From: Ascochyta rabiei
Lineage: Eukaryota; Ascomycota; Dothideomycetes; Pleosporales; Didymellaceae
Reading direction: 5' to 3'
Assembly (NCBI RefSeq): GCF_004011695.2
Contig: NC_082407.1
Coordinates: forward strand, 930,001 to 994,000
Length of the DNA stretch: 64,000 nucleotides
Part shown: positions 2,251-40,290 of the stretch, in pieces
Layout: every line of letters begins with the position of its first letter
Position numbering within the stretch: the stretch's first letter is position 1
The notes under the pieces: model-generated
What the model saw: the letters and a program-made list of their open reading frames with translations, nothing else
Database searches by the model: none
What the model was told of the DNA's origin: nothing
Made by a program: the position numbers and the translations under genes

Positions 2251-2460
2251 GTAGCAGTGCGTAAACGGTACTGAAGTGAGCTGATTTGCTAGATTGATTT
2301 AAGGTTGTAGGTTGAGGCGTGTGTTAATTAAGCAGACAGTTGCTTAGAAAAACTATCTAATTACATCTTGTCATCTATTTCGTCTATTTTATCTCTCTTA
2401 TCCTTCTTGTTATAGCTGTGTTAGTCATTAATATTTATTAATTTAAATTGCTTATTAGGT

Positions 2461-7541: not shown

Positions 7542-7543
7542 TA

Positions 7544-9309: not shown

Positions 9310-11012
9310 ATTAAACTATTCTATCTTTATTGCTATCTGCACGTGCTTTACGCTTTCCTGTAACCCTACAGGGACCAAATAGAGGCATGCCGTAGACTGT
9401 AGTTGCATGATTCCAGAAGTTAGATTCTGAGGATAAAGTATTAGTACAGAGTGGGTGTAGGCATACTGCAGGAGCGTTCTCCTTTATTAGATGCTCCTTT
9501 ATGTGTTTATGTAACTAAAAAACGTTGCTAAACTACGCAAAGCGTACAGCTAATAGAGCGTTAGTGCTAAGGTAAAAGATACAATATGCTGCTACTATAA
9601 TAAGTCTACACTCCTTTATTAGACTATAATAGTTATTTAAATCTTTAAGATATTGCTTCTGTAGGTAGGCGTTCTAAATTTAGTTAGAACAGTACTATAC
9701 GTTGTGCTTATAGCAATAATGCATCTTTATAAGCGTTGTCTATTTATTAGGAATATAGTACTCCTTAGAAACATAATACGCAAGGTCTATATAGCTTTTT
9801 AATCTTTTGCAACAGCCTGCCTACAGGCACTAGTGCAATCTAGAATGTTAAAGATGTTAGGTTTTATAAAGAGAATATAACCTACACATCTTCCTATTAA
9901 AGTAATAGTAGCAATTATTTTAAAGACACGTGTAGATCTTTAAGAAACGTGCAGTTATATGCTCTTACTCTGAATTAACTTATCTTTAGCATGCGCACTA
10001 GAGCAAATTACTATAGAAATAATCTAGACTAAGACTATAGATTATAAGCAGAGCTCTGCATAAGGTAGACACTTTTATACTTTACTAGGTCTTTGTTATA
10101 GTTACTATACTAGGTCTGTTCTGTTAGTTCTGCAGTCTTATACGTGTAGCGCTTCCTTTAAGACCCTACTATTTTAATTAGGGGCTTAAGGACTTATGTA
10201 AGTGAAAGTTAAGATATAACCTTATCTTTATTATTACTATTATAAAACATAATATCTACTACAGCCTAGCGCTTAGGCTTAAACTTAAGTAAAGCTTAAA
10301 GGTAACAGGACAGTTTGCAGGAAAGAAATGTAGACGTTAGTACTGTAGCTCTAACAGCTTTGCCTTTCCCTTTAAGATATTCTTAGTAGTTCTTTTAATA
10401 CGCTGTTTTACGCGTTTATTGCCTAAGCTTATACTCCTGCGTTACAGATAGTGGCACAGTTAATAGAACTTAGACCTCTCTTTCTTCCTTCTCTTTTAAG
10501 GCCTGTGGTACCCTCTTATACAGTAATTCTGTAAGCATTAACCTAGGTAGCTTAGGCGCTAGTAATTTCTAGTTTGCTATTATAGAGCTAGACTCCTTAT
10601 AGGTTAAGGCATTACTTATATTTATAAATTATAGATTAGCTGTTAATTCTAATAAATCCTAAAACGTGGTACTGCGCTGTATTATTATATTTGTGTCCTA
10701 TTAAGGTCCTGCGCTATGTGGCTGTAGCTTCCCCTAAATAGGTCTTAGCTTAACTTCATTAGTGTGTAGTACTAACTTGCCTTTAATAGTGTAGGCAAAG
10801 GCGCGCCTAAAACAATACGCGCTAAGATACAACTAGCTCCTTTTAATTCTAAGTTAAAGTAACTGTACGTCTATATGCAGGTTATAGACATTAATTTGTT
10901 AGCATATATCCCCCTTATAATAGAGCACTCTAGAAACTTAGATCTATACTTAGCCCTGTGTAGCAGATTACCTATAATAGGTTTTGTAGTTTCTAAGTTG
11001 TTCTTGAAGTTG
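9310..11012 (-). pseudogene. DUF3435 tyrosine recombinase (Starship captain-like), C-terminal part
   Basis: This is the downstream half of the gene whose start is at 40290; LTR element A sits between the halves. Across the joint, counting the AGTTG duplication once, the minus-strand frame continues without shift. It contains an Arg-rich motif FRRAFAY near 10790-10830, where the recombinase family has its second catalytic Arg region, then a long helical stretch (RQQTRKTAYQKNYQEYLK). At 9392-9463 lies a C2H2 finger of form C-X4-C-X12-H-X4-Y, whose last His has become Tyr through CAC to TAC. DUF3435 proteins often carry such a C-terminal finger. The catalytic Tyr region is not clear. All frames are broken by RIP stops. 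A Crypton-type recombinase is the alternative. Confidence 0.6.
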
Positions 11013-11531
11013 TACTTTAGTTAAAGACCGTAAGCACTAATTCTATTTGTTCTTAGGGATAAGTACTGGTGGATTGGTTGGGGTTATTAACTAAGCAAAG
11101 CTTGTGAAGATAGAGTGCACTGAATAGTACAGAGTAGACTCTCTAGTTTAAGCGCAGGTTAAGATTCTAAAGACAAACTTAATTAACAAGGTTAAACACA
11201 AACTATAAGAGTTATTTTCCTACTTAACTATATACTTTAATAATTATAGTGGTAATACAGACTAATTAGTGTTGTGTATCCTCTAATTGCACTAAGCACT
11301 AATTGCCCTAATTACTAATTGTACTAATTCCTGATTACACTAATTACTAATTGTACTAATTACTAGTTGAACTAATTATGCTAAGCCTTAATTAGGTTAT
11401 ATGTCCTATTAGTTATTAGCTAAGTGCTAATATGTAATTGTTGCTTACTTGTTGTTTGTTCTGTTGTTATAATTATTGTGCCGCAGCTACTGTAATTAGA
11501 CAAACCCTTCCTGTGTTCTGTAGATTGTAAC
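11013..11531 (-). repeat. Left (3') LTR of element A
   Basis: This copy pairs with 38807-39325 over 519 bp. Differences are mainly C/T and G/A, for example GTAATTAGAC here against GTGATTGGAC in the right copy, so this copy took more RIP at its inner end. It holds a short-period array of CTAATT-type units at about 11282-11395. Confidence 0.9.
11282..11395. repeat. Short tandem array (CTAATT/ACTAATTGTA) inside LTR A
   Basis: Units related to ACTAATTGTACTAATTACTA repeat head to tail. The same array is present in the right LTR at about 39074-39186, so it belongs to the LTR and is not a local expansion. Arrays of this kind in LTRs often sit in U3, but its role here is unknown. Confidence 0.7.
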
Positions 11532-11548
11532 ACTATCCCCCCTCTGTC

Positions 11549-17893: not shown

Positions 17894-18095
17894 TGTTAGG
17901 CGCTGGGCCTGGAGGTACCTCTGCCTGTCTTAGCGAGCTACTATAGGGCTAGTCAGCCCAGACTATATAAAGGTGTTAGAGGTTATTACTAATACTCTAG
18001 TAATTAGTCTTGTTACTACACACTACGTACCTTAATACACCTACTATCCTCTTTAACCCTATCCTCCCTTATAATTGCTTTGTATACTCTTTATA
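17894..18095 (+). repeat. 5' LTR of element C
   Basis: It matches 24988-25189 over 202 bp, with differences mainly of the transition type. A TATATAAAG box lies about 80 bp in, a plausible core promoter for the element. Confidence 0.9.
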
Positions 18096-18119
18096 TTCTA
18101 ATTACTCTTATATTATAAT

Positions 18120-21100
18120 TAAAGATAGACCTAAGCTACTATAAGTCTTAAACTGAATTATCTAGGCTTACTGTCTTTAGAGAGGGACTAAGACAACCTA
18201 CCTGTAGGAGAGCTAGTAGAGCGTAAGGTAACACCTCCCTTTACAGAAAAGGAGATACCTTAACAGACACTAAGTGTCTATAGTGCCTTAAGAGGATCTG
18301 TAGGCCCTCTAGGTAGTATACCTTACCCTAGAATTTATATCTATAGGGCAGCTTTAGCTAAAGAAGGCTAGAATAGCCTAGAAGTAGGTAATTAATAACA
18401 GGAGTTAGAAAACTTGCGTATATAGTTATAAGAGACAAAAGACTATAAGGAACTTTTCTTTCTTTATAAACTTAGACGCAAATATAACAAAGGAGATCTA
18501 GTAATAATCCTATCCTTCTAAAAAGTACTAGAAGGAGTAGAGAAACTATAATTTTCCCTATTTATAAACCTTCTATAACCTAAACCCCTATAGAAGTATA
18601 TTAAGCGTAACTGCGCTAAATATAACTATTAGGAGAGAGATTGTAAGGGATACTTCCTCTAATCCCTAGTTAATTTCCTTATAGAGGAATAAAAGATTAA
18701 CTTTAGTATAAGGTACCTCTTAGAGAACCTAAAGATGTTGTAGTAGGCTTACTGCACAACTAACTACTGTAATTAGCTAACCTAGGAACTAACATAGTAA
18801 GAGCTAAAAAGAATTGTACTAGATGCTCTAGAAACGCTAGCTAAACGTAAGTAAGCAGCGTATAAATCCTTAAAGTAATATAAGTAGTAGAAATCTTAGT
18901 CCCCTATAGATCTGCTAGACTTTATGCGTCTACTATAGAAGGAACTAGGCAACTTATATATGCTAGAGCTTTAAGTCCTAGAATATATTACTACACTGCT
19001 CCCTAGTATATAAAAGGACTTATTTCTTATCCCCTATAATTAAAGAGACATAATCCTAAAGGTAGAGGAACAAGCTAATATTATTAACTAGAGACTAGGT
19101 CAGCATAGCTAACAGCTACCTAAGAAGACTCTAGCTAAGGGCAAGACAACTAATAAAGGACTACAGAAGCGCTAATCTAGTAACTCTAGGTTAGAGGGGA
19201 ACATAAAAACCCTAAAAAAGTTATTTAAGTCTAAGAAGTTCTATAAAGAGCTAGTAAAGGGTAAAAAGGGCTAAGATAGGCCACATAAGGCCTAAAACGC
19301 GTGCCTTAAGTGCAGAGAAACTAGTTACTACTGCCCTAACTGCCTAAAGCTAAAGTTAAATTAGAAAGACCCTACTCTAGATAAGTTAGGAAAAGATAAG
19401 GGACCTAAGAGCTAATCTCCTCTCTTGTAGCCTATATTAAATTATCTAAAAAGAAGAAGAAGAATATCTCTCTTTATAAGGCAGTGTACTTAAAACATAT
19501 ATGCCTACTTACAGTTAAAGTATCTATAGGTAACACAGAAAATATAGAAGCCTTAATAGATAGAGGGTTATAACTAAACTTAATTTTAGTTCTCCTAGTA
19601 AAGGAGCAGGATCTAGAGGTTACACTATTAAATAAAATAATAGCTAAAGGTGTAGGTAGAGCAGAATTGCCTAATTACAGAGTAACTACAGCAGAAGTAT
19701 CTATTGTTAACTCCTATAGAAGACAGGAGGTCTAATAGATACCTTTTGTAGTTACAGACCTATAAAGGTACAAGATATACCTTAAATTACCCTAGATTAA
19801 CTAGACAAACCCTAAGCTAAGCTATTTAAGCTAGTGCATGCTCTTCTAAGAGAAGAAGTATAGAGACTTTCCTAAACTAGAGGAAATAGTATTAGAAGAT
19901 ACTAAAGAGTTTAAACGCACTATAAGAAGTCCCTTAGTAGACGTTTATATGTGTATAGTAAACTTAGTAGGTACACATAACCTAATATCTGCTAAAAAGG
20001 GCCTAATTCTAGAAGTATGTTGCAAATATGCTTACTTAGGATTAGAGGATAATGCTTAGGTCCTACTAGAGCATAGAGAGCACAACCTAGTAATTAATAT
20101 TACAGAAGGAGCTACTTCCCCCTACTAACTATTATACAGGCTATCTACAACAGAATTAGAAATACTTAGGAAATATCTAGCAGAATATCTACAACGTGGC
20201 TAGATATAACACCTAAGGTCGCCAGCAGGGGCGCCTATTCTCTTTTTAAAGAAGAAAGACAGTAACCTACAACTATGTGTAGACTATAGAGGTCTAAACA
20301 AGATAATAGTTAAAAACTACTATCTATTGCCACTAATTATAGAGTTACTAGAATAATTAGCGTAAGCTAAGTTCTATACTAAACTAGATATACATAAGGC
20401 GTATTACTATATCTAAATTAAGGAAGGGGATAAGTAGAAGACTGCTTTTTAAACTAGCTATAGACATTTTAAGTACATAGTAATACTGTTTAGACTTATA
20501 AATGCTCCTGCCTAATTTTAGGCCTATATAAATAAGGTACTAATAGGATTAGTTAATATAACTTATATTATGTATCTAGACAACATATTAGTATACTCTA
20601 AGACAGAGGAAGACCACATTAGACACGTTAAGAAGGTTTTAGAGAGACTTTGCAAAGTAAATCTCTATATGCGCTTAGATAAGTATAAATAGCACTGTTA
20701 ATATACAGAGTACCTTAGGTACATAGTCTTACCTAAAAGAGTAAGCATTATCATAGACAGGGTTGAAACAATCTAAGAATAGCTAATTCTGCGCATAGTT
20801 TGCAATATCTAAGTATTTATAGGCTTTATAAACTACTATTAGAAGGTTATTATAAGGTTTTCTAAATTAGCCTTACTATTAACCTAATTAACCTAGAAAG
20901 GGCTAAATTTGGCTAAATCTAGTTAAGCAATAAGGAAGGAGGAGAGTTAGCCTCTTAAGCTAAGTAAAGAATCCCTATAAGCTTTCTAGAATATAAAGGA
21001 TTTATTTATTAACGTACCTATCTTAGTTTATTTTGTACCTAAGAGGTAGACTAGGATAGAAGTAGATGCCTCTAGAGGCGCTATCTTAGGAATCCTCAGT

Positions 21101-23045
21101 TAACTAGTCCCTAGGGAGGGGAAGCTGGCCTAATAGAGGCCTGTAGACTTCTATTTAAAGAAGTTAATCTAAGTAGAGTACAACTATAATACTTATAACT
21201 AGGAACTTCTTTTAATTGTCTAGAGCCTACAGTATTAGCAAAGATACTTAGACAGTACCTTCTTTAAGATCTTAACAGATTACTAAAACCTAAAGTAGTT
21301 TATAGAGACAAAGGTTCTTAGCTATTAGCAAGTAAGGGCATACTTAGTGTTATCTAAGTTTAACTTTATAATTACTTATTACCTAAGGTCTATAAACCCT
21401 ATAGATAGACCTTTATAGCATCCTAATTATATAAGAAAGGCATAAGACCTCTTATAAAAGTATAATAAGGCTTTTATACAACTGCTTTAGGAGATCCTAA
21501 CTAGGAGGAACCCTAATACTCCCCTAGTAGCAGCTATAACCCTTTATTTATCTACAAAAGAAAGAAAGGACATAAGGGACCTTAAAAGAGAAGAATTAAG
21601 AGAGAACAGTTACATAGAGCTAATAACAGACTTAGACAACATAGACAAACTCTCTAGCACTAAAAAAGAGTTAAGCAACGTTAAAATAGGACAAAACAAC
21701 CTAGAAAAAGACAATATAGCTAAGGAGAAGGGTATCTTACTTATAAGGCTAAAAGATAAAGTATAGGTAATTAAAGAACGTTACAATAACCTAATATTAG
21801 GACACTTTAGAGCACAAAAGACCTTAGAGAAGATTTAGCGCAGATATACCTAGAAGGGCATTACTAAGAACGTATCTAACTACTACCACAACTGCTTAGT
21901 ATATAGGAGATTAACTACTGCCTAACACAAACTGTACAGGTTATTATAACCTTTACTAGTACTAAGCTAACTATAAGAGGACGTAATAACAGATTTTATT
22001 ACAGAATTACTTTCTAGTAAGGTGGCTAGGCTATTGTATAACTCTGTATTAGTAGTAGTATACAAATTAACTAAAATATTACACTATATACTAGCTAGGG
22101 CTAATTAGGATAGAAAAGATCTAGCACACGCCTAGATTAGAAAAATTATCTGTTTACACAGCGCGCCAGCACAAATTACTTAGATTAGGGGCTGCTAATA
22201 AACTTAAAGACGTAGGAAACCTTTAACTACTATTTAAACTTAAGACAAGTCTTAACGTTAGCCTATTATCCCTAGACAGATAGCTAAACAGAAAGGTAAA
22301 ATTAGACTCTTAAACAGTACTTACATTGCTATAATACTCTAGAATAAGATAATTAGGCCCTATAGATTTCAATTACAGAATTTATATATAATAATAGCAT
22401 TTACGCATCTATAAATATAACACCTTTCTAAGCCTGTTACAGTATAGATCTAAGGAGCACAGATTAGCCTACTTTAGTATTAAAAGGCAGAGAATCTCCC
22501 CTTGCAAAGGAATTAGCTGCTAGAGTTATTACCTTATAGGCTACCTGCAAAGTAAACAGAGAAAAGTTAAATAAGTATTAAAAGAAACACTTAGATAAGA
22601 AACGACTACTAGCACCCTTTAAAGTAGGCGATAAAGTACTAGTCTCTAGTAAGAATATTAGGACAGTACGCCTAAAAAAGAAGCTAGACTAGAAATATCT
22701 AGGACCTAGGACTATTACGGCCTAGATTAGCCCTAGTGCATACAGAGTAGACCTGCTAGGAACAAAAGAGATCTATCTAGTATTCTATGCGTTACTGCTA
22801 GACCTATATACACTAAGAAGTTAACTCCTAATTATATAGGAATAAATACAAGAACCTATAGTTAAGGGGGAAGAGAAGGTGTAAGATACAGAAAAAGTCC
22901 TTAATAGAAGGTAATTAGCTAATAGACAGTAGGAATACCTTATTAAGTAGGATAGATTCCCTAACTTAGAGAATTCCTAGGAAATTAGCACAAAACTTTC
23001 TAAAGAAGCGCTAAAACAACACTAGAAAATAATAAAGTAACTGCT
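18120..23045 (+). pseudogene. Element C gag-pol with chromodomain, RIP-broken
   Basis: Order on the + strand: gag; a zinc knuckle at 19302-19343 reading CLKCRETSYYCPNC, where the His position is Tyr (TAC from CAC); a protease near 19545-19580 (ALIDRGLQLNLI if the stop is taken as Gln, in place of a DSG motif); reverse transcriptase at about 20140-20720 with [17 protein letters not shown] and YLDNILVYSK; RNase H near 21040-21300; integrase with a His/Cys-type region near 21880 and a GPY/F-like region at about 22690-22800 (YLGPRTITA, YRVDLL). At 22932-23040 a chromodomain can be read (EYLIK, stop for Trp, DRFPNLENS, stop for Trp). Stops of RIP type occur throughout, so no product is expected. 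Confidence 0.85.
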
Positions 23046-23099
23046 TAGACTGCGTAATAAGACGTTAAGGTTAAAGTCTAAAAAAGGGGAGGACTAAAA

Positions 23100-24973
23100 A
23101 GGCTAAATACCTTTACTTAACTATAGTTTTTCCCTATAGGGGTTTTTGATTTAATAAGTTTTTAATAGTTTACGCTAAGGGAAAATATAACCCTACCTTA
23201 CTCTAAGAAATACAGACTAGCTAAAGCAGACATCTTTTAGCCTATTATAGCTATTTCTAATATAAGGAGATAAAGAAAGTTATATGCTACGTTATACAGT
23301 TACAATTATAAGCAAATATAAAAGAATTAGTATAGAAGAACACCTTTCTAGTATTATTTAGACTATCTAAGAGTGTAATGCACCTAATTGCTATATTAGC
23401 CTAAAACTATCTACTAACTACAAACTTAGGTATTATTAATCTAAACCTTCTATTATAGGGAATATCTATTAACTATAACTACTACTATAGGTATAAGTAG
23501 TAGCCTTGCAACTACTACAAGGCTTCTTAACAGCAGCAGCGGCAGCGGTAGCATTGGCGGCAGCCTGTTTAGCAGCCTCCTGTTCCTCCTGCTCCTTCTA
23601 GAGTTAACTAAGGGTCTTTCTAGTGCCTGTAATCTGGTACTTTAACTATATAAGAAGTTAGATATTATTAAAACAGGTTAAAACGTGCTATAATACCTTC
23701 TTACAGGGGGTAATAAGCGCGTCTAGATTAGACTTACTACTGCTCTCCTCTAACATCCTCTTTCACTTTATCTCAGCCTTAAACTGCGCTAGCCTTAGAT
23801 TGATCTCGCTTCTTAATATAGATACTAGACAAGGTTAACTTACGTGCGTAGGTGTTGCTATTATAGAGTGTAAGTAGCTCTTCCTAGAGTAAATAGTTCC
23901 TATAAAGGTTAGATTATGCTACAATAAGCTAAAAAGAGACAGAACGTACTCTTAAATTATACCTAGTAACAAGCTAGCCTAGTTAACAATAGACTCGCCT
24001 ATTATAGTCTTCTTATTAATAGACATAGGCGCAGTAGTAGCAGATATTACAGGGGTAGTCTTAACACTAGCTGCATTAATAATAGCAGCATAAGCAGTAG
24101 TAACTAGGTAACAACTAGAGTAAAGGCGCGCTATATTGCTAGAAAGCCTTAAATAGCTATTAGCGTACTTATTAGGGCCCTAAACATGTTAAAAGATGCT
24201 AAAACAAGCTAAAAGGAGATAAAACACGTACTAATAGGCAATTCTTGTTGCTATTATAACACTCTCTATAACAGTAGGCCTAGGCATCCCTATAACGCAG
24301 GCTACCCTACAAAGCTAGGTTAGTAGAGAAACAACAGTCTCTATACACATTACTATTAGCAATGTAGTAGAGGTAGAGCATACAGCACTGCTTAGTAGTC
24401 CTGCTGTTCTTAGTAATATTAATCTTATAGCAAGTAGGTATTAACATAACAGCTATAGCAAATTGTAGTTAGTAACAGTTAGTAATAGTTAGTAGTAGGC
24501 AGTAGTAGTTAGGAGCAGTCTAGAAAGGTTACTAAGGCGTGTTATGCGGTACTATCTGCTAAAACATATCAGAACATGCTAGAAAGACCTAGAAAATCCC
24601 TTAGCTATCCTTACAAAAGTGCTAGACAGAATAGGTTAGTACTTACTAAAATAAAGTAGGATGTAGTAGTAACTAATAAAACTAGGAGTATAGATAGCTT
24701 ATATGCTGCTAGCTACCTAGTTAGAGCTTTAGCCTGCGCAGACAGCTGCCTAGACCCTAGAGGTAAAGTAAGAGGTAAGAGAGGATTTCTGTTTAACTTT
24801 TACTAGGTAAAGGTAGAATTAGTATTAAGCCCTATCTAGCCTTACAAGGCGTCTAAAACGCCTAAACCTAGTTAGAATTAGCTATAACAGGACAGACAGA
24901 GCAAACACGTCTAAAGCTAGGCTAAAATAATACAGTATTACTAATTATACTATTATTTAAGCTAGATAATCTA
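23100..24973 (-). pseudogene. Antisense reading frame in the 3' region of element C
   Basis: After the chromodomain there is an unusually long 1.9-kb region before the 3' LTR. The minus strand from about 24200 down to 23480 reads as a charged protein with few RIP stops (fragments RSEINLRLAQFKAEIKQKRM and KEQEEQEAAKQAAANATAAA) and ends in a Cys motif KKPCSSCKATT. The opposite strand gives mostly hydrophobic residues, as expected of a shadow. It is antisense to pol. The function is unknown and the frame is dead here. Confidence 0.45.
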
Positions 24974-24987
24974 GAGAAGGGAGGCAT

Positions 24988-25189
24988 TGTTAGGCGCTAG
25001 ACCTAGAGGTACCTCTGCCTGTCTTAGCGAGCTACTATAGGGCTAGTCAGCCTAGACTATATAAAGGTGTTAGAGGTTATTACTAATACTCTAGTAATTA
25101 GTCTTGTTACTACACACTACGTACCTTAATACACCTACTATCCTCTTTAACCCTATCCTCCCTCGTGATCGCTTTGTACACTCTTTACA
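24988..25189 (+). repeat. 3' LTR of element C
   Basis: It pairs with 17894-18095 and keeps CTCGTGATCGCTTTGTACAC where the 5' LTR has CTTATAATTGCTTTGTATAC, so here the 5' copy took more C-to-T and G-to-A changes. GCTAA follows. Confidence 0.9.
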
Positions 25190-25194
25190 GCTAA

Positions 25195-26300: not shown

Positions 26301-29300
26301 GTAAAGACCTCTTATACTATTATATCCTGTAATACCTCTAGTAGTTCCTACGTTAGCTTTATATATCCTTTCTATTTAACTAGGACCTATAACTTATTCT
26401 ACCTACAGGCCCTCTTTTCTTTTAGGATAGACTTTACCTCCTATTTAGCTAGGGTTAGGTTGTCCTCCTCTAGGATAACCAGCGGGCCTAGTCTACTTTC
26501 CTGCAGGCGCTGTGTTAGTAACAGGTTAGAAGCTGTACGTTCTAGTAGGTCTATATACACTATCTTATAGAGGTTACCTAGTAAATCTAGGGTAATAGTT
26601 AGAGAAGTAGAAACTGTAACTACTGTGTACTAAGCTTATAACTAGTTAAGCTTCTAGCTTAGCCTGTTAGTTTTTACGTTGTAGAGGGAAAACTACACCC
26701 TATCCTCTATATAGTACTGCTCTACAGGCCTACAGCTATAGTCTATTACGTCCTAGGTGCGTTATTATACCTATGCTATAGCTACCTAGGTAAGCTCTAT
26801 GCCTTTCTAGAGGTAGTCTAGGAAATAGACTGCCTGTCCCTGTAGTGTGTTCTAGCTAATAGTTAGTAGTACTGTTGTCTATAGGAGGTCTATATTATAA
26901 CTATAAAGAAGTAGGTTAGGACTAACACTAGTAACTAAAGAGTTATAATTATTAAGTGCTAGTTAGCAGGCTAGAAGATAGTTAGGCTAGTTATCCTACT
27001 TAAAGTTAACTATAACCTGTAGGACTGCCTACACCTCTTAGTTAGCACACTCTATCCCTCTGTCTGTCTAGAGGTAGTAAGCTGTAGAGAGCAGCTAGTC
27101 TACCCCTATAAGGCTACATAATATTGTCTAAAAACATCCTAGCTAGTCTAAGCTGTAGTCTGTAATAATAGCGCTTAGAAAGCCCTAGAACTGCTACTAT
27201 GTGTTACAGAAGACCTTAGCGTAATATTCTGCTGTTATAGAAGTTATTGCTTTAAGCTGTATATACTTAGAGAGGTAATCTATAATAACTTAAAGATAGT
27301 GTAGTACGTTCTTATTAGCCTGAAGGAAGTTAACTATAAAGTCTATTAAAATCTAGAACTAAAAATAGTTAGTAATAGGCAATAGCTAGATTAAGTCCTA
27401 CTGTTAGCGCTGTAATACATACGCGCTAAAATAGTAGCAGTTACAGATATAATGCTAAACGTCCTATAATATCCCCTTCTAGTAGAAGTTGCGTCTAATA
27501 ATGTAGAATATAGCGTTAGCACCTAGATAGCCTGTTAGGTTAGATTTATGTGCCCTTTAGATTATTGTAGTTATAAGTAGCTCCTAACATAAAACCTACA
27601 TAACCCTGTGCTACAGCAGCGTGCTATAAGCACTAAGCGTACAATCTACAATTTACTAAGTAGTCTTAGCCTTAGGAGGGAACTAGCAGGCCCTATTATA
27701 GACAGTAGACAGGCACGCTATATACCCTACGTCCTGCTAAACGCCTTTATCCTATAGTAATTATATATATATGTTAATAAAAAGTAGAAGTATACTAGGG
27801 CCTAGTGTACTAATTACTAATACTAAAACTAGGGTTATTATCCTATAGACCCCCCCTAACCTCCTATTATAGTCCTGTTCCTAGTAGCTTAGCGCATCTA
27901 GTTTGGCTGTAAGGCGCCCTAGGCAGAAGCAAAGGTAGAAACAGAACTTTAACAGCTCCTCCGCCTATTAGTGCTACCTCTTACTTAGCCTACGCGCTGT
28001 AGTAAAGTACTAGAGGTTCTTATAGTGAGTTAGGATAGTAAACAGCCTAGCAACAGACCCTAATTTAGCTGCCTAGACCCCTAGGCACTTTATAACAGCA
28101 GTTAACTCCTTATTATAGATAGTATAGTTCTGTTGTTCTATTATAAGTATAGTAGAGTAATATACTACTAGGCAAAGCACCTTCCTATACTATTAAGAAA
28201 GGCAGCTACCTATCGCCTTACTAAAGTAGTCTGCCTCTAATAGTGTTTCTTGCTTAGGGTCCTACTAGGCTAGGACTAGTTCTGTTATAAATGCGTTCTT
28301 TAGCTAGTAGAACGCTACATCCTCCTCCTGCCCCTACTAGAACAGGACATCCTTCCCTGTAAGGTAATTAAGTAGGGCAGCAATATTAGAGAAGGCTAGG
28401 ATAAAGTCCTAGTAGAAGTTAGCAAACCCTAGGAAACTGTAGACTCTGCGTAAAGACTATAGGGCTTCCTAATTATAGATAGCCTTAACCTTCTTAGGAT
28501 TAGAATAAATGTCCTTTCTAGCTTCTATAATATATCCTAGGTAGTATACTTCCTTTATTATAAATATACACTTCTTAGGATCTAGATATAGCCCTACATT
28601 GCGTAGGAGCATAAGGACTCTGCTAACCTTCCCTAAGTAGTCTGTCCTAGACCTGCTACTATAAATAAGGACATTATCTAGGTACGCAGTAGTATAGTTG
28701 CCTAATGTCTCCTAAAGCACGCTGTTAATATAACGCTAGAAGGACACTAGTGCTCCAGCTAGGCTAAATAGGTAGACTAGCTACTTAAAGAGCCTAAAAT
28801 AGGTACAGAACGTAGTAAGGTGCTTATCCCCTTCTATAACATAAATCTAGTAAAATGCTAAATAAATATTAACCTTAGAGAACTAGTAGGCACCCCCTAG
28901 TATACGCAACGTCTCCTTAATAAGAGGAAGTAGGTACTAGTTAGTAATTATAATACTATTAAGTGCGTAATAGTCTATGCACATACGCCACCTACTAGAG
29001 GACTTTTTAACTAGCAGGACTAAGGCCTCTACTAGGGAAGAGGAGGCACAGATCTACCCCTTATCTATTAGTGCTAACACCGGTTTCTATAGCTTAAGTA
29101 GCTGGTCCCTTAGTATGTTGTACAGAGGGCCTTAGGGTAGAGGCCCCTCCTTCCTAGACTAGTTGCGTTACAACTATATATAGTAATCTATCTAGCCCCT
29201 ATATAGGGGAAGGCTAGAGGCCTTACTCTTATTAAATAGGTCCTAAAACTAGACTAACATAGGGGGAAGGGGGTCTACCTCCTCTGCTGTCTCTTACGCT

Positions 29301-31174
29301 CCTAGGGATTAAACTAAGAGGATTTTAGTAATGTTGTAGAGGCTTATAGAGACAAACTAGTCCCTAGGTAGGTACTTCTAGAGCCTATTAGCTAGAGTCT
29401 TATTAAACCTAATTACTAATAGAAGAGCTATATAAACGTTTGCTATATGCTATACAGACTTATAGACTATAAGGTTTCCTACCTATTATATCCTTAGTAT
29501 GCCCTTTTCTGCGTCTAATACTACGCCCACTTATTAGAGCTAGGGCTTCCCTAAAATAATATCCTAGCTTAGGCCTAGTACTATGTAGGCTATAGCCTAT
29601 AAGTGCTACCTATCTAAGTTATACCTAAACAGAACTAAACAGGAGATTATAGACTTCCTACTAGTACCTACTAGTTATGCTAAGCGTTATAGTAGCACCT
29701 TAATAAAGTCTCCTCCTAAGCGTGTAGTAAAGTTATTACTTACTACACTAAAGCATTATACCCTAAGTCTACTAGCACGTTAGCCTAAATTACCCTATTA
29801 ATAAATAATAAAATGTAGAATATGGGCTTATCTATAGAGTCTGTAATAGCTCCTCTAGCAGCCTATAATGCCTCTGTACTAGTAGTCTCCCTTACTAATA
29901 TGCTTCTACAGCGCTCCTAACTTAGACTTATATTAGAAGTAGCTAGTTTCCCCTATATAAACTAGCCTCTTCCTTACCTAAGATTATTACTACCTGTACT
30001 GTAGTTACTACTGCGTTAGCGCAATCCTAGTAAATAAGTCCTTTTTTGCCGTAATAGGTATATAGGTTAGCCTCCTAGCGTTACTAAAATACCTTATTAG
30101 GAACCTACATAGCCTAGTTAGGAGTAGACTACTTCTAACCCCTACGCTTAGTACTGCTGCTAGTGCAACCTGCAGACATAACTGTTATTTTAACATTACT
30201 GTGCTTATTACGCTTAGGCAGCGCCTAGGTAGGGATATAGCGTAGCTAGTTTTCTATAGCTATAGTCTTAACGTCTATAGTAATAGACTTATACTCTATA
30301 ATAGCTATATTATAATCTATATAAGTTACTCCTTAGTTTATTACTATATTATAGATATTTGCGTTTAGAGCCTAGCAGAGCTTTAATAGGTACTGTTCTC
30401 TGTTCTAGTAGAGGCCACTACTTTGCACTAGTAGCTGCTTAAACTAGATAAAAAAGTCTAAGAATAACTTGTTAGGGCCTTAACAGATGCTTTCTAGCTT
30501 TACCTAGACCTGTTCCTAGCTATAGTTGTTGCTATAGCAGAATTCCAGGTATACTAGGAAGTCCTCTAGGCTCTACACACCTTAAGTACCCTTAATCTTA
30601 TAGAATAGAGCTATATCTTATTATATAGACGCACTAAGCTAGAACTATATAAAGGTAAACATGTTCTATAGCCTACTAATAAAGGATATGTCTACCTGCA
30701 GCTTATATTCTATTATAACCTACTATACCTTAAATAAGGATTTGTCTCTAGTAAAGGCCTTGCCTATAGGAAGAGGTTTTCTATAGGCTGTAGATGTCTG
30801 TATAGGGGCATGTAGGCCTAGGGCAGACGCTGAAAACAGCGCTTTATAAGGCAGGTTAGGGGCTAGGGTAGACGTTAATAGGTACAGCGTTACTTCTAAG
30901 GAGGATAATAGGACTGTAGACGCAGGTCTAGTACAGGTATTAGCTATTTGTGCTAGAGACTCTACAAACGCACGTATATTAGAGTTATTACGTTTAAGTA
31001 ATACTATACGCTTATTAGTAGTAGATAAGGCTTACTATAAGTTTATTATAAACTATAATATCTAGGCTATAAATTCCTAAAGGGTTAAGGGGACAGATTT
31101 GTCTAAGGGGTTATTCTAGGAGCCGGCTAACATAGTACAAGTGCTAGCTGTTCTCCTAGAAGAAGAGATATAAA
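26300..31174 (-). pseudogene. Left B unit gag-pol (chromovirus), RIP-broken
   Basis: Minus strand, right to left: a gag-like region; a zinc knuckle at 30021-30062 read as YTYYGKKGLIYxDC, where two Cys have become Tyr and the His is lost; reverse transcriptase at about 28380-29080 with AYLDNVLIYSS; integrase at about 26650-27700; and a chromodomain at about 26319-26406 (VLVK, stop for Trp, KGYIKLT, stop for Trp, E). The chromodomain places element B among chromoviruses. The right unit repeats this layout. Both copies carry many RIP stops. Confidence 0.8.
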
Positions 31175-31329
31175 TATTATAGACTAGCCTTAGGGTAGGA
31201 TGTAATAAGGGTTAATATAGTATTATATCTCTTAAGAAGGTAACACGTTGCGTGTCCTTCTAATATGTCTGTAGGGCATGTGACCGCCCTATCTCGCTTA
31301 AGGCTTAGACAAGGTCTAAGCCCATAACA
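31175..31329 (-). repeat. LTR B2 (shared middle LTR of tandem element B)
   Basis: This 155-bp copy is the 5' LTR of the left unit and the 3' LTR of the right unit. It starts TATTATAGACTAGCC, where the other copies have TGTTATAG, and ends CCCATAACA. On its right side about 200 bp, including the purine tract, are missing compared with the left unit. Confidence 0.9.
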
Positions 31330-33130
31330 CGCACCTGCCTAAGTTAGACACTGTACTACTCTACACTCCTACCTAACCTACCTGTAACGCACCTACCTAA
31401 TTTTTTGTACGTGCCCTTACCCTACCTGCTATATCTGTTATTACCTCTAGTTATAGCTATTAGGCTACTAGTTAAGAAGCTAGTAGTCTCTCTAGAGGGG
31501 GCAGTTGTAGTCTACTACAGTCCCTCCCCTCTACCTATAACATACCTCTAGTATTTCTTATCTATAGTTTCTAATCTAGTTATAGGGCCTAACTATATAT
31601 ATAGAAAGCTTACTACTGTTGTATAGGTAACTATAAAGTTATAGGTAACTTAGACAACAAGGACCTAGTCCCTGTCTCTGCTAGCGCTGTTCTATGCTAC
31701 CTCTGCTGCCTCCTTACTATTCTTACTAGCTAGTCTTATAAGTACCTACGTCTATTATAGGTCTACTTACCTGCTAATTTCTTCTATAGCTAACTACGTT
31801 CTAGGCGCTAGTAAGACCTACTGTACCTGCGCTAAGTATAAGTATATTTATATTTATAATAATAACCTCTTTACTATAAATACTAAGCTCTGCTGTACCT
31901 AGTATTAATTTAAGTAGTACATTAACGTATATGTTCCTGTTCTAGCCCCTTATTTCTAACTAACAGTAGCTAAGGTGTTAGCACGCGCTAGTAACGCCTA
32001 TGTTAAGACGCCTAGCACCTAGAGTGTAGGTAGTAATAAGGCTAACTAGGGGCGTTAGCCTGTTTTCTACTGTAAGTTACCCCCTTATTACTGCTGTAGG
32101 TTTTCCTTTCTAATATAATATTTTTAGTAGGTACCTACTATAAGCACTAGCAGGTGTATAAGGCTGCGCTTAACCTAGCCCTAGCTAACCCTACGCTGGC
32201 AAAGCAGTTAACCTCTGCTTACGCTGCCTGTTCCCCTACTAAGCCTAGTACCTAGGTTACTCTGCCTACTATGCTGTTGTCTAGGCGTTATAGCAGTAAC
32301 TAACTAGATACCTACCTCTAATAGTTTGTAGCTGCTATAGGGTTAGCCTTCTAGTTCTAGACTAAGCGCATAAACTGTATAGAGGTAGTCTAGGCCTATA
32401 CTACTATAAGAATTTCTATCTATATTAGGTATGTAGCTAACTAGATCTAAAGGACACTATTAACTAAGTTAAGTATCTGCTTACTATGCCCTACTGCTGC
32501 CTAGAGTACGCCCTATTATCCTGCTTATCCTACTGCTGCTGCTCTAACTCCCCTAACAAGCGCTGCTTGTCTGTCTACTAGCTCTACTTACTACCCTGCT
32601 ATTGCTACTCTCCCTCTACTGCAGAGTTGCCTATACCCCTGTGCTAGCGCTACTCTCCCTTTCTTATAAGGTCTTCTACGCCCTCTTACTATTACTACTT
32701 TCCCTCCCCTATAGAGCTACGCACGCCTACCTACTATTACTACTTACCTTCCCCTATAGAGCTGCGCACGCCTAGCTATAACTTTAAGGAAATATTATAG
32801 TTAATATATAGTAGTACTATTAAGGTAGATATAGAGGGCAGTAATAACAACTATAAGGTTAACTACTACTACTACATTATGCAGAACTAGGCTTTAGACA
32901 TAGCTACTACTGCCTATTATTTCCTATCTATAGATAAAAACATCTTTTTTAAGTCCTAAGGCTTACTACTAGTTACCTAGTAGTGTGTGTGTAAGGCAGC
33001 ATCGTGCTGTTGCTGTAAGGTCCCTAAGCTCTCCTACGCTAGGCCTTATACTCTACGCAGTATCTCCTAATAGAACCCTATAAGGGTTATTATAAATAAT
33101 AAAAGTTTCTTCTTTTCTATATCTACTTCT
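31330..33130 (-). pseudogene. 3' extra region of right B unit, uninterrupted copy
   Basis: This corresponds to 16965-17893 plus 25195-26300 of the left unit and preserves the site where element C inserted there. The roughly 45-bp tandem units recur at about 32620-32775. The minus strand reads Gln/Ser-rich stretches (SSIGEGKQQ, DLIRKGEQRQHRGIGNSAVE). The + strand shows a Cys/Lys-rich patch near 31820-31850 (TYCTCAKYKYI). Two divergent copies of the same frame make this the best place to test which strand codes. Confidence 0.45.
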
Positions 33131-36100
33131 TACGTACTATATATATTACTGTAAAGGCCTTCTAGGCCTTTATATTCTATAACGCTTCTAGTAGTTCCTA
33201 CGTTAGCTTTATGTATCCCTTCTATTTAACTAGAACCTATAACTTATTCTGCCTACAAGCCCTCTTTTCTTTTAGAATAGCCTCTACCTCCTATTTAGCT
33301 AGGGTTAGGTTGTCCTCCTCTAGGACAACTAGTAGGCTTAGTCTACTTTCCTGTAGGTGCTGTGTTAGTAACAGGTTAGAAGCTGTATATTCTAGTAGGT
33401 CTATATACACTATCTTATAGAAGTTACCTAGTAAATCTAGAGTAACTATTAGAAGAGTAGGAACTGCGACTACTGTGTACTAGGCTTATAACTAGTTAAG
33501 CTTCTAACTTAGCCTATTAGTTTTTATGTTGTAGAAGGAAAACTACACCCTATCTTCTATATAGTACTGTTCTGCAGGCCTACAGCTATAGTCTATTACG
33601 TTCTAGGTGCGTTATTATACCTATGCTATAGCTGCCTAAGTAAGCTCTATACCTTACTAGAGGTAGTCTAGGAAGTAGACCACCTAGCTCTGTAGTGTGT
33701 TCTAGCTAATAGTTAGTAGCACTGTTGTCTGCAGGAGGTCTATATTATAACTATAGAGGAGTAGGTTAGAACTAACCCTAGTAACTAAAGAGTTGCAATT
33801 GTTAAGTGCTAGTTAGCAGGCTAGAAGACAGTTAGGCTAGTTATTCTGTTTAAAGTTAACTATAACCTATAGAACTGCCTACACCTCTTAGTTAGCATAC
33901 TCTGTCCCTCTGTCTGTCTAGAGGTAATAGGCTGTAGAGAGCAGCTAGTCTACCCCTATAAGGCTACACAGCGTTATCTAAAAATGTCCTAGCTAGTCTA
34001 AGCTGCAGTCTGTAATTATAGCGCTAGAAAAGCCCTAGAACTACTACTATATGTTATAGAAGACCTTAGCGTAATATTCTATAGTTATAGAAGTTATTAC
34101 CTTAAGCTACATATACTTAGAAAGATAATCTGTAATAACTAAGAGATAGCGTAGTATATCCTTATTAGCCTAAAAAAGGTTAACTATAAAGTCTATTAAA
34201 ATCTAGAACTAAAAACAGTTAGTAATAGGCAATAGCTAGAGTAAGCCCTGCTGTTAGTAGTGTAATACATGCGCGCTAAAACAGTAGCAGTTACAGTTAT
34301 AATACTAAACGTCCTGTAACATCCCCTTCTAGTAGAAGTTGCGTCTAATAATGTAGAATGTGACGTTAGCGCCTAGATAGCCTGTTAGGTTAGATTTGTG
34401 TGTCCTTTAGATTATTATAGTTATAAGTAGCTTCTAACGCAGAACTTACGTAACCCTGTACTATAGTAGTGTACTATAAGTACTAAGTATATAATCTGCA
34501 ATTTACTAAGTAGTCTTAGCCTTAGGAGGGAACTAGCAGGTCCTATTATAGATAGTAGATAGGCGCGCTATATACCCTGCGTCCTACTAAACCCCTTTAT
34601 TCTATAGTAATTATATATATATATTAATAAAAAGTAAGGGTATACTAGGGCCTAGTGTACTAACTACTAATACTAAAACTAGGGTTATTATCCTATAGAC
34701 CCCCCCTAACCTCCTATTATAGTCCTGTTCCTAGTAGCTTAGCGCATCTAGTTTGGCTGTAAGGCGCCCTAGGCAGAAGCAAAGGTAGAAACAGAACTTT
34801 AACAGCTCCTCCGCCTATTAGTGCTGCCTCTTACTTAGCCTACGCGCTGTAGTAAAGTACTAGAGGTTCTTATAGTTAGTTAGGATAGTAAACAGCCTAG
34901 CAACAGACCCTAATTTAGCTTCCTAGACCCCTAGGCACTTTATAACAGTAGTTAACTCCTTATTATAGATAGTATAGTTCTATTATTCTACTATAAGTAT
35001 AGTAGAGTAGTATGCTATAGGGCAAAGCACCTTCCTATACTATTAAGAAAGGTAGCTACCTAACGTCTTACTAGAGTAGTCTACCTCTAGTAGTGTCTCT
35101 TACTTAGGGTCCTACTAGGCTAGGACCAGTTCTGTTATAAATGCGTTCTTTAGCCAGTAGAACGCTGTATCCTCCTCCTACCCCTACTAGAACAGGACAT
35201 CCTTCCCTGTAAGTTAATTAAGTAGGGCAGCAATGTTAGAGAAGGCTAGGATAAAGTCCTAGTAGAAGTTAGCAAACCCTAGGAAATTGTAGACCCTGCG
35301 CAAAGACTATAGGGCTTCCTAATTATAGATAGCCTTAACCTTCTTAGAATTAAAATAAATATCCTTTCTAGCTTCTATAATATATCCTAGGTAGTATACC
35401 TCCTTTATTATAAATATACACTTCTTAGGATCTAAATACAGCCTAGCATTACGTAGGAGCGTAAGGACTCTACTAACCTTTCCTAAGTAGTCTGTTCTAG
35501 ACCTACTACTGTAAATAAGGACATAATCTAGGTACGTAGTAGCATAGTTGCCTAATATCTCCTAAAGCGCGCTATTAATATAACGCTAGAAGGACACTAG
35601 TGCTCTAGCTAGGCTAAACAGGGAGACTAGGTACTTAAAGAGCCTAAAATAAGTGCAGAATATAGTAAGGTGCTTATTTCCTTCTATAACATAAATCTAG
35701 TAAAATGCTGTATAGATATTAACTTTAAAGAACTAGTAGGCACCCTCTAGTGTACGCAACAAATCCTTAATAAAAGAAAGTAGGTACTAGTTAGTAATTA
35801 TAATACTATTAAGTGCGTAATAGTCTACGCACATACGCTACCTGCTAGAGAACTTTTTAACTAGCAGAACTAGAGCCCCTACTAGGGAAGAGGAGGTGTA
35901 GATCTACTCCTTATCTATTAGTGCTAACACCTGCTTCTATAGCTTAAGTAGCTGGTCTCTTAGCATGTTGTATAGAGGGCCCTAGGGTAGAGGCTTCTCC
36001 TTCCTAGACTAGTTACGTTGCAACTATATATAGTAATCTATCTAGCCCCTATATAGGGGAAGGCTAGAGGCCTTACTCTTATTAAATAGGTCCTAAAACT

Positions 36101-38024
36101 AGACTAACTTAGAGGGGAGAGGGTCTACCTCCTCTGCTGTGCCTTACGCTCTAAGGGATTAAACTAAGAGGATTTTAGTAATATTGTAGAGGCTTATAGA
36201 GACAAACTAGTCCCTAGGTAGGTGCTTCTAGAGCCTATTAGCTAGAGTCTTATTAAACTTAATTACTAATAGAAGAGCTATATAAACGTTTGCTATATAC
36301 TGTAAAGACTTATAGACTATAAGGTTTCCTACCTGTTATATCCTTAGTATGCCCTTTTCTACATCTAATACTACACCCTCTTATTAGAGCTAGAGCTTCC
36401 CTAAAATAATATCCTAGCTTAGACCCAGTACTACGTAGGCTACAGCCTGTAAGTGCTACCTATCTAAGTTATACCTAAATAGGACTAAATAGGAGATTAT
36501 AGACTTTCTACTAGTGCCTACTACTTACGCTAAGTGTTATAGCAGCGCCTTAATAAAATCTCCTCCTAAGTGCGTAGTAAAGTTATTACTTACTACGCTA
36601 AAGTATTTATACCCTAAGTCTACTAGCACGTTAGCCTAAATTGCCCTATTAATAAATAATAGAATATAGAATAGGGGCTTGTCTATAGAGTCTGTAATAG
36701 CTCCTCTAGTAGCCTACAACGCCCCTATACTAGTAGTCTCTTCTACTAATATACTTCTACAGCGCTTCTAACTTAGACTTATATTAGGAGCAGCTAGTTT
36801 CCCCTATATAAACTAGCCTCTTCCTTACCTAAGATTATTACTGCCTATACTGTAGTTACTACTATGTTAGCATAATCCTAGTAAATATGTCCTTCTTTAC
36901 TATAACAGGTATATAGGTTAGCCTCCTAGCGTTGCTAAAATACCTTATTAGGAACCTACATAGCCTAGTGAGGAGTAGACTACTTCTAACCTCTATGCTT
37001 AGCACTGCTGCTAGTATATACTGCAGACATAACTGTTATCTTAATATTACTATCCCTATTATACTTAGGCAGCGCCTAGGTAGGGCTATAGCGCAGCTAG
37101 TTTTTTATAGCTATAGTCTTAATATCTATAGTAATAAACTTATACTCTATAATAGCTGTATAACAATCTATATAAGTTACTTCTTAGTTTTTTCTATATT
37201 ATAGATATTTGCGTTTAGGGCCTAGCAGAGCTTTAATAGGCGCTGTTCTCTGTCCTAGTAAAGGCCGCCACTTTGCACTAGTAGCTGCTTAAACTAGATA
37301 AAAAAGTCTAAGAATAACTTGCTAGGACCCTAATAGACGCTTTCTAGTTTTGCCTAGGCCTGTTCCTAGCTATAGTTGTTGCTGTAGCAGAATTCTAGGT
37401 ATACTAGAAAGTCCTCTAGGCTCTACACACCTTAGGTACCTCTAATCTTATAGAACAGAGCTATATCTTGTTATATAGACATATTAAGCTAGAACTATAT
37501 AAAAGTAATTATATCCTATAGCCTACTAATAAAGGACATGTCTGCCTACAGCTTATATTCTATTATAACCTACTACGCCTTAAATAAAGATTTATTCCTA
37601 GTAAAGGCCTTACCTATAGGGAGAGGTTTCCTATAGGCTGCAGACGTCTGTATAAAGGTATGTAGGCCTAGGGTAGACGCTAAAAACAGCGCTTTATAAG
37701 GTAGGTTAGGGGCTAGGGTAGACGTTAATAGGTACAGCGTTGCTTCTAAGGAGGATAATAGGATTATAGACGCAGGTCTAGTATAGGTATTAGCTATTTA
37801 TACTAGGGACTCTATAAACACATATATATTAGAGTTATTATATTTAAGTAATACTATATACTTATTAGTAGTAGTTAAAGCTTACTATAAGTTTATTATA
37901 AACTATAATATCTAGGCTATAAATTCCTAAAGGGTTAAGGGGACAGATTTATCTAGAAGGTTATTCTAGGAACTAGCTAATATAGTATAAGTGCTAGCTG
38001 TTCTTCTAGAAGAAGAGATATAAG
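33130..38024 (-). pseudogene. Right B unit gag-pol (chromovirus), RIP-broken
   Basis: It aligns with 26280-31174 of the left unit along its length. The zinc-knuckle region lies at about 36872-36913, reverse transcriptase at about 35220-35930, integrase at about 33490-34540 and chromodomain remains near 33160-33250. The two bodies differ at scattered C/T and G/A positions, so each took its own RIP hits after they were joined, or they were copies that already differed. Confidence 0.8.
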
Positions 38025-38179
38025 TGTTATAGACTAGCCTTAGGGTAGGATGTAATAAGGGTTAATATAGTATTGTATCTCTTAAGGAGGTAACATGTTG
38101 CGTGTTCTTCTAATATGTCTGTGGGGCACGTGACTGTCCTGTCTCGCTTAAGGCTTAGACAAGGTCTGAGCCCATAACA
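38025..38179 (-). repeat. LTR B3 (right end of element B)
   Basis: This 155-bp copy starts TGTTATAGACTAGCC and ends CCCATAACA, followed by GTTAA at 38180-38184. It is slightly GC-richer than B1 and B2, that is, less RIP-affected. Confidence 0.9.
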
Positions 38180-38184
38180 GTTAA

Positions 38185-38806
38185 TGTTAATAGCAGTATT
38201 AATAAGCTTATTGAGGGTTTCTGTGCTTGCGCTGGTGCGCATAAGTTCTTCCTTAACCTTAGGCTTTAATCCTTGTTAGAATATAGTAATTAGAGCAGTA
38301 TTATCCTAGTTAGTGTTAGTAGTAAGCTACTAAAATTCTGCAGTATAGTTAGTAGCTAACTTATCCTGTCTAATCTTCTAAATGTTACCTTAAGCAATAT
38401 GTAGTTTATTAGAGACTCTAAAGATTAGCTTAATCTTTTCTTTAAATAGGTTAAAGTCTTTTATCTACTTGTCTATGTTATCTAGAGCCTTACAAGCTTA
38501 GCACTGCTTTACAAAGGGCTTAATCTAGGTAAACACTTTACTACGCATGTAGCTAGCTACAAGGACTACTTATTTAGCCTTAAGAACCTTCTTACCTTAG
38601 AAGGTAAAGAAGAGGTCCTACTGTATAAGCTAGTTATTAAGCTTACTACAATCTCTATAGTAAAGGTTAGGCTTATTAATATTTATAGTGCTGGTAGTAA
38701 CAGTTACATCTATGTTAATGTTGCTAGATAGGGAGTTGCTAGGGGTAGCACAGGATCTAATAGTACTTATCTTAGGCCCTTAGGGGTGTTTAAAATGTTA
38801 ATGTTA
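38185..38806 (-). pseudogene. Element A gag, first part (split from 16809 by element B)
   Basis: This lies between the 5' LTR of element A and the element B insertion and would join to 16804 leftward once B is removed. It is the expected place of the primer-binding site and the gag N-terminus. No clear TGG-type primer site is seen next to the LTR. Stops are of RIP type. Confidence 0.6.
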
Positions 38807-39325
38807 TACTTTAGTTAAAGACTGTAAGCACTAATTCTATTAGTTCTTAAGGATAAGTACTAGTAGATTAGTTAGGGTTATTAACTAAGTAAAGCTTATA
38901 AAGATAGGGTGCACTAAATAGTATAGAGTAGACTGTCTAGTTTAAGCGCAGGTTAAGATTCTAAAGACAAACTTAATTAATAAGGTTAAATACAAACTAT
39001 AAGGGTTATGTTCCTACTTAACTATATACTTTAATAATTATAGTAGTAATATAGACTAATTAGTGTTGTACATCCTCTAATCGCACTAAGCACTAATTGC
39101 CCTAATTACTAATTGTACTAATCACTAATTACACTAATTGCTAATTGTACTAATTACTAATTATACTAATCACACTAAGCCTTAATTAGGTTACGTGTCC
39201 TATTAGTTGTTGGCTGAGTGCTGACATGTAATTGTTACTTACTTGTTATTCGTTCTGTTGTCATAATCACTGTGCCGCAGCCACTGTGATTGGACGAACC
39301 CTTTCTGTGTTCTGTGGATCGTAAC
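38807..39325 (-). repeat. Right (5') LTR of element A
   Basis: 519 bp, pairing with 11013-11531. Its right end is markedly less mutated than the partner. The AGTTG duplication follows at 39326-39330. Confidence 0.9.
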
Positions 39326-40290
39326 AGTTGTTAAAAGAATTTAAGTCTTAGAACACTCTATCTGCAAAGGTAAGTAACAGGAACTATGTTATAGGGCATA
39401 TATATCTTATACGCAGCTCTTTATACAGCGTTATAACAGGTCTATCTTAAGTTAGCCCTTATTAAGAATAGAAAGTAGCAAACTAGTATAGTATACGCGT
39501 GTTTCTTATACTCTTAATGTCCCTTTTAGTTTCTTAGTTTAACGTGAAGGAGTTACCTAGGAGAGTTGTTGTTAAATAAGCAGACAAGTTTAATATCTTT
39601 ATAAAGCAGCCCTTTGTTAGTTTAATACTATACATCTAAAATAACAACTTCTCTAGGTCTAACACTAATAAGAAGTAAGAGTTAAATAGTAAAAGCTATC
39701 TAGTTGCGTATGCGAGGGTGTAGATACTTATATTTATTACTAGCAAAGAGGAACTTAATAATGTCTTTAGCAACTGCGACTGGCGCAGGTAGCTTAGGGC
39801 GAGCGTTTGTTAAAAGAATGCCTCTTAGGATAAGATCCTTCTTAACAAAATTTAGAATCTCCTGGTTCTACACTTAAGTTTATTAATAACGTGTGTGGAT
39901 CTTAATAGCACGCTTAAGACTGTTAAAGTAATTAACAAGGGTTGTATTAGTAATGTAATCTTCTAAGAGACTAGTACGTGTTTAAGTAAACTACTTAAGG
40001 AAAAGTTTAATCTGGAAAGTTGTAGGTGCCTCTGTAAAACGTTGCTAAAGCATTAGCTTCTCTAAAACCTCTTCTAAGAAGCTTAGCTGTTAGTTAGTAA
40101 TTAATTTAATCCTAGCTATATTATATAAGGCTTACTGCAACTATATCTCTATTATAAAGATATAAGAGTTATAACTATATTTTACTAAGGTGCTCTTTAT
40201 ATCCTTAGGGCTAACAGGTTAAGAAGCAATTTCTTGCTAAGCACGCTTCTTGAGATCATTAAGATTAATTAGCCTGGCCGCCCTTGGCAT
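39326..40290 (-). pseudogene. DUF3435 tyrosine recombinase (Starship captain-like), N-terminal part
   Basis: The frame starts at ATG 40290 (MPRAARLINLNDLKKRA) and runs leftward to the element A insertion. Central fragments match the DUF3435 pattern: LLLLISVRPREVVILDVQYQ and NKGLLYKDIKLV lie near 39575-39680, where family members read GxRPGE..., then NxGLLYxDIxLV, then a KLRNxKGH motif (here KLRNQKGH). The Arg of RPRE would be the first catalytic Arg of the recombinase. Interruptions are TAG/TAA of RIP type. The gene continues at 11012-9310, giving about 890 codons in all, normal for DUF3435/C2H2 proteins. In Starships this gene sits at the 5' edge and points inward, as here. A Crypton-type element is the alternative. 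Confidence 0.65.

Follow-up and report, generated by a model that had tools for sequence, protein, structure and literature searches.

In the published work on which we draw here and below, the features given for Starships are a captain as the first gene, direct repeats and inverted repeats, and captains mutated by repeat-induced point mutation (RIP) exist (PMC12257634); DUF3723 is among the genes prevalent in these elements (PMC12134995). The closest described systems are Osiris, of the Enterprise family in Aspergillus fumigatus, which inserts in and fragments 5S rDNA and measures about 38-138 kb (PMC12153272), and Voyager, cited as having DUF3435 plus DUF3723 genes in a source that also mentions Starship insertion in 5S rDNA (PMC10128009); 5S-targeting Starships are mentioned in PMC12134995 as well. 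Here, a window of 64,000 nucleotides of Ascochyta rabiei (contig NC_082407.1, hereafter C3, positions 930,001-994,000) was analyzed together with the rest of the genome (40.9 Mb, 23 contigs, one assembly). We consider it very probable that the window holds the 5' end of a dead Starship inserted in a 5S ribosomal RNA (rRNA) gene. The features that carry this assignment are given below; P0002, with which the captain was compared, is a Cucurbitaria berberidis protein of 824 residues with a DUF3435 (PF11917) match at an E value of 1.7e-34.

40640..40668, minus strand: 5S rRNA gene remnant, nucleotides 1-29, transcribed leftwards; 28 of 29 letters kept (motif alignment, blastn with intact 5S).
40291..40639, minus strand: element 5' end and captain leader; tip TTCTCTTGTCCG, TTCTCCTGyCCG in relatives (edge alignments).
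39327..40290, minus strand: captain relic, N-terminal part; residues 1-286 of P0002, stops present.
9320..11007, minus strand: captain relic, C-terminal part; residues 285-801 of P0002, C2H2 region eroded.
11008..39330, no strand: nest of long terminal repeat (LTR) retrotransposons splitting the captain, 28.3 kb; AGTTG at 11008-11012 and 39326-39330.

As in 5S-targeting Starships, the insertion at this locus lies inside a 5S gene. The element DNA begins at 40639, 349 bp ahead of the captain, and the GC fraction changes at the border from 0.373 (40001-41000) to 0.509 (41001-42000). The original prediction, made from the letters of the window alone, had described a gene starting about 300 bp inside a composition boundary and pointing inward, and this is what we observe: the minus-strand ATG stands at 40290, and the captain, the first gene at the 5' edge (40639/40640), runs away from that edge. 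At the end of the 5S remnant, the letters CAAG, extending up to AACAAG in a relative on contig C8, are likely the target-site repeat. Rfam identifies no 5S gene in the window because just 29 nucleotides of it remain.

A DNA search with window 39327-40980 returned 20 matches including the window itself, 14 of which end at window positions 40672-40676. Fifteen of the 20 were fetched as loci; two further edge-like matches, C9:1082540 and C12:1138775, lie outside the loci read. Across all loci read, the first 20 nucleotides of 5S, allowing at most four changes, were located at 13 separate places. Of these, two are intact 5S genes (Rfam RF00001), and the remaining 11, the window included, show about 29 nucleotides of 5S followed by the common tip TTCTCCTGyCCG, with variations, one of them having a 6-bp insertion in the 5S part. 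When the 5S gene itself was searched for, the best 40 of 45 candidates were scored: 29 are full length at 99-100%, one is full length at 87%, six start at nucleotides 21-26 and four are cut elsewhere. The broken left edges that were read thus number 11, versus 29 full-length genes. Two of the six right halves, those on C8 and C1, have a partner left half of like orientation, and four are unpaired (C14:493158, C2:276630, C19:631156 and C19:169051).

The two pairs define relatives bounded on both sides. On C8, 5S nucleotides 1-29 (at 1247889) and 21-120 (at 1332949) lie 85 kb apart in the same orientation; the element so bounded has its captain at the 5' end and contains a DUF3723 gene. On C1, the left (604870) and right (624917) halves, again in the same orientation, are separated by 20 kb; the left and right tips of this element (C1:604870-625011) are like those of the C8 element, the captain search gave no match within it, and it is possibly a short or non-autonomous relative. 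The direct repeats flanking these relatives, CAAG on C1 and AACAAG on C8, correspond to 5S nucleotides 24/26-29. Ahead of the right halves on C8, C1 and C19:169051 stand tips of 54-66 bp that resemble one another; a right end of this kind would have a tip of the type ...CGGCCAGGAGAC next to a 5S 3' part (from about nucleotide 26). The tips are inverted, as the C8 left tip TTCTCCTGCCCG and the reverse complement of the right one, GTCTCCTGGCCG, agree in 10 of 12 letters. For the window copy, the evidence on direct repeat and inverted tips comes from the left side only.

Two of the unpaired right halves have neighbors of their own. On C14 (loci L015 and L041), an intact 5S gene (498270-498389, minus strand) precedes a captain-like piece (497339-497767, minus strand) by about 500 bp, and the 5S 3' part, from nucleotide 26, is at 493158-493252 on the same strand as the intact gene; the stretch C14:493158-498389 could be an element that restores 5S on insertion, or a rearrangement. 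On C2, DUF3723 fragments (275751-276268, minus strand) are located just outside the 5S 3' part (276630-276729, minus strand), an order opposite to the expected one.

By its homology, we identify the minus-strand gene 40290-39327 plus 11002-9320 as a decayed DUF3435 tyrosine-recombinase captain that the retrotransposon nest interrupts at a single point. In tblastn against the window, residues 1-286 of P0002 align at 40290-39327 (E 4.5e-50) and residues 285-801 at 11002-9320 (E 6.2e-69), collinearly across the nest and with the two blocks meeting at its ends, and the paralogous stretches L035 (C8:1245001-1255000) and L022 (C8:1094935-1098509) are continuous across the split point, without a nest. 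The predicted DUF3435 identity is upheld by this collinearity and these paralogues. The C-terminal C2H2 finger predicted along with it is eroded, yet its region can still be recognized in the alignment to P0002. The N-terminal stretch is 41% identical to P0002 and 57% to P0001 of Didymella keratinophila, for both of which the database names are only uncharacterised or hypothetical; P0002 has a C-terminal C2H2 region like that of the relic, and its Pfam content is DUF3435 only, plus a zinc finger below cut-off. The gene had also been said to read through once the nest and one AGTTG are removed. With that removal the frame is indeed kept (by coordinate count, no letters being joined), but the aligned stretches contain 49 stops in 792 codons and shift frame several times, partly in intron-like fashion where the relatives L035 and L011 jump too. 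Tyrosine Y387 of P0002 is conserved in 17 of 17 aligned relatives and is a histidine in the window. That the captain family would be a tyrosine recombinase is supported by a 17-sequence family profile, whose sole PDB match at E<=1 is XerA (9.6e-5), and by a structure model of P0002, whose best seven fold matches are Cre/Tre, XerA and lambda integrase. The C8 copy L035 has its captain in the same placement and direction at its 5' edge. The PF11917 search also recovered further DUF3435 genes or relics at C9:455600-456910, C7:1598685-1600008, C18:668050-669366, C15:908601-909933, C12:1197521-1198051 and C20:229299-229604, and the one on C7 has DUF3723 about 6 kb away (C7:1605813-1607202).

Inward of the captain and inside the nest, further features were assigned.

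17894-25187: Gypsy element in the nest; 200-bp repeats, reverse transcriptase, RNase H, integrase zinc domain.
8025..9137, plus strand: second element gene relic, convergent with and adjoining the captain; 62.6% to L035.
5675..7566, plus strand: DNA transposon, later insertion; 66-bp inverted ends, DDE_1 domain.
1..5674, no strand: probable cargo; four other genome matches.

The C8 counterpart of the second gene (L035:6738-7811) matches A. rabiei ST47_g2209, a hypothetical protein of 295 residues, with 100% identity across 83% of the query. Eleven database proteins are related to this L035 gene, which lies beside the captain, and for none of them is a Pfam domain listed. Further inward, window 1-5674 matches C8:1044940-1048023 (76%), C8:1037421-1039615 (72%), C8:1274044-1274983 (68%) and C8:1275659-1275934 (66%). 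The 68% and 66% matches fall within the 85-kb C8 element; the 76% and 72% ones, together with C8:1031775, are inward of a second C8 captain copy (left edge C8:1105773), behind which order and orientation are the same as on C3. Since the DNA search skips very common words, a short match list alone is no proof of low copy number; a dispersed repeat from the same AT-rich block gave at least 41 matches in the same kind of search. The original prediction had suggested that decayed coding stretches to the left could be cargo, and by these C8 matches window 1-5674 is probably cargo of this element; its six frames gave no Pfam match.

A profile search for DUF3723 gave 19 genome matches: two in the 85-kb C8 element (1287099-1288677), one at C8:1031775-1032017, two forming a relic to the left of the window (C3:912490-913768) on the strand that also carries the captain, and 14 elsewhere. 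With L073:1500-4600 as the query, a dispersed repeat dominated the DNA matches (40 of 360 candidates were scored); the DUF3723 part by itself yielded three DNA relatives of the C3 relic, at C8:1287284-1288591 (67%), C2:275763-276084 (71%) and C8:1031750-1031832 (83% over 83 bp). DUF3723 is found inward of the captain at all three places, on C3 and behind both C8 captain copies.

The nest has direct LTRs (11009-11532 and 38803-39326, 89.7% identical over 524 bp) and is bordered by AGTTG on either side (11008 and 39326); the further AGTTG at 10996 is unrelated. This LTR pair was considered as the bounds of the whole AT-rich block and rejected, because the uninterrupted paralogues show that the nest merely splits the captain. 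A 6.85-kb unit is present twice in it (25190-31329 and 32041-38179), with no Pfam match in the three plus frames of the second copy. Across window 16808-38179, a 157-bp repeat occurs three times (16808, 31173 and 38023) with this unit, an arrangement that resembles tandem LTR elements with a common middle repeat, and the first copy of the unit is interrupted by the Gypsy element. The DNA transposon, which we take to be pogo/Fot1-like, is also present at C3:914581-916448, in the same block, and at L036:7669-9562, where it sits in the leader of the second C8 captain copy.

Decay of the element is biased. Relative to the C8 copy, the window has 197 C>T plus G>A changes against 58 in the reverse direction in one captain part, and 253 against 119 in the other; the comparison with the second copy gives 51 to 29; transversions are also many (144, 149 and 49 in these three comparisons). 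The TpA/ApT ratio rises from 0.7-0.8 outside to 1.9-2.2 within the element and nest. Given that CpG and CpA sites are both affected and that the C8 copy is itself mutated, RIP is likely the main, not proven the sole, process. To this extent the description of the captain as RIP-killed stands, and RIP would have been the main cause of the element's death.

The other element edge, expected to the left in the original prediction, was looked for by scans of C3:890001-994000 and by genome searches, and was not found. In C3:910001-994000, blastn and a RIP-tolerant scan gave best scores of 11.0-13.5 for the six probe/strand combinations against 9.8-11.8 for shuffles (one shuffle per probe), the best blastn E value being 0.083; in C3:890001-910000, the same procedure gave 9.6-13.1 versus 12.2-13.7 for shuffles and no blastn match at E<=1. 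On the right ends of C19 and C1, by comparison, this RIP-tolerant scan reaches 16.5-49.3. A RIP-tolerant 5S pattern of 35 places had 40 matches genome-wide, none of them on the minus strand of C3, and a DNA search of the genome with the right tips did not find the far end of the window copy. The AT-rich block is continuous over about 83 kb, with its left border between 886,200 and 888,000 on C3 (GC samples), and the full span of the window copy within it is a presumed one.

The Starship identity agrees with what had been proposed, and is supported by an exact 5S edge common with ten other loci, an 85-kb relative with both 5S halves and a 5' captain, inverted tips, DUF3723 relatives and inner DNA common with captain-bearing copies. 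Several points weigh against it. The 11 edge loci were found by similarity to the window edge and are thus not an independent sample. The hidden Markov model check suggested in the original prediction came out negative on captain pieces scanned apart, the 2.7 kb being unjoined: Pfam found no DUF3435 in the N-terminal piece and three C-terminal frames (0 families at E<=1), and the captain locus is absent from the 16 genome matches of the PF11917 profile search. The identity of the captain rests on homology to DUF3435 proteins and paralogues because the Pfam model misses these eroded pieces; of four frames or pieces of the paralogue L035 that were scanned, one matches PF11917, at 3.6e-11. Confidence in the model of P0002 is low (predicted local distance difference test, 54.9; predicted template modeling score, 0.46), so the fold matches support but do not prove a recombinase. 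In addition, the inner segment shared with the 85-kb element has the opposite orientation relative to the captain there, and window 1-5674 and the DUF3723 relic, 57 kb inward and outside the window, would belong to the same element by analogy with the paralogues. No right tip or 5S 3' part was found for the window copy in C3:890001-994000, a range that stops short of the 1.8-kb block border, and the second C8 copy is likewise delimited at its left edge only.

The missing far end is also what would be expected if a short Crypton-like or solo DUF3435 element had entered the 5S gene and the remaining AT-rich block were an unrelated transposon graveyard, Cryptons being short single-gene elements with a GCR1_C-type DNA-binding domain. 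Several of the broken-5S loci have in common only about 45-75 bp of tip, and solo DUF3435 genes are said to be commoner than captains (PMC12134995). However, the nearest copy with both ends is 85 kb long, the relatives of window 1-5674 are found, within the limits of the DNA search, only in captain-bearing neighborhoods, and DUF3723 accompanies the captain in each of the three cases, which leaves this explanation quite improbable. A second possibility, compatible with a Starship edge, is that the AT-rich block is a centromere or a piece of it and the captain relic one border transposon. An uninterrupted AT-rich stretch of some 83 kb, RIP-like and packed with nested transposons, would suit a centromere, but the border of the block coincides to the base with the 5S insertion edge and the block has low-copy segments in common with two Starship-like loci on C8, a single contig; we regard this as unlikely. 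Finally, the 5S match might be a 5S-like tip carried by the element rather than a target site. The first bases of the element loosely resemble the displaced 5S letters, and the boundary at nucleotide 29 is a little soft for this reason. Since the upstream flanks differ among the 11 loci, and the 5S 3' part from nucleotides 21-26 stands alone at 6 of the 40 places that were scored, at two of which a left half of matching orientation goes with it, we give this explanation hardly any credit.

In the mechanism that we propose for a Starship at this locus, a tyrosine-recombinase captain would place the complete element behind nucleotide 29 of one of the dispersed 5S rRNA genes, which would split that gene and duplicate CAAG (up to AACAAG). 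RIP and other decay would later kill the captain and turn the element AT-rich, an LTR retrotransposon would land inside the captain with further elements nesting in it, and a pogo-type transposon would land further in. The window copy would once have had the same far end as its relatives, and this captain would be the enzyme that moved the element; the order of these events is our reconstruction. More tentatively, and with doubt prevailing, a 5S-hunting Starship lineage might have repeatedly split 5S genes and been killed by RIP, its bodies becoming landing grounds for retrotransposons and seeding part of the AT-rich DNA. If so, 5S fragments would be fossil tags for locating (to the base), counting and dating dead Starships. 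Because a split 5S gene marks the edge to the base, an eroded Starship stays recognizable even after mutation has put its captain beyond the Pfam model.

The suggestion of an edge of an undescribed giant element very probably holds for the giant-element edge; as 5S-targeting Starships are already published, the element is new only as another member, one whose fossil edge is marked unusually well. No paper was found with both Starship and Ascochyta rabiei (2021 onwards), nor one with both DUF3435 and Didymellaceae, most subscription journals being outside the scope of both searches. If this gap in the literature is real, the 5S-targeting elements of the plant pathogen Ascochyta rabiei, among them one of 85 kb that retains both ends, have yet to be described, and ideas on how its AT-rich blocks arose can be put to the test.

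Compared with the described systems, the element resembles Osiris in its tyrosine-recombinase captain, its 5S rDNA target and, probably, its giant size; 5S targeting is there linked to direct repeats of over 6 bp (PMC12153272), whereas here they are of 4-6 bp, and the window copy is dead, RIP-mutated and nested. With Voyager it would have DUF3435 plus DUF3723 genes in common; the 12-bp target quoted for Voyager (PMC10128009) is not the site used here, 5S nucleotides 26-29. The captains of Frontier and Fusarium Limos have likewise been inactivated or eroded by C-to-T type mutation (PMC12257634); those captains are lightly or moderately mutated, whereas the captain in the window is split by a 28-kb nest and carries 49 stops.

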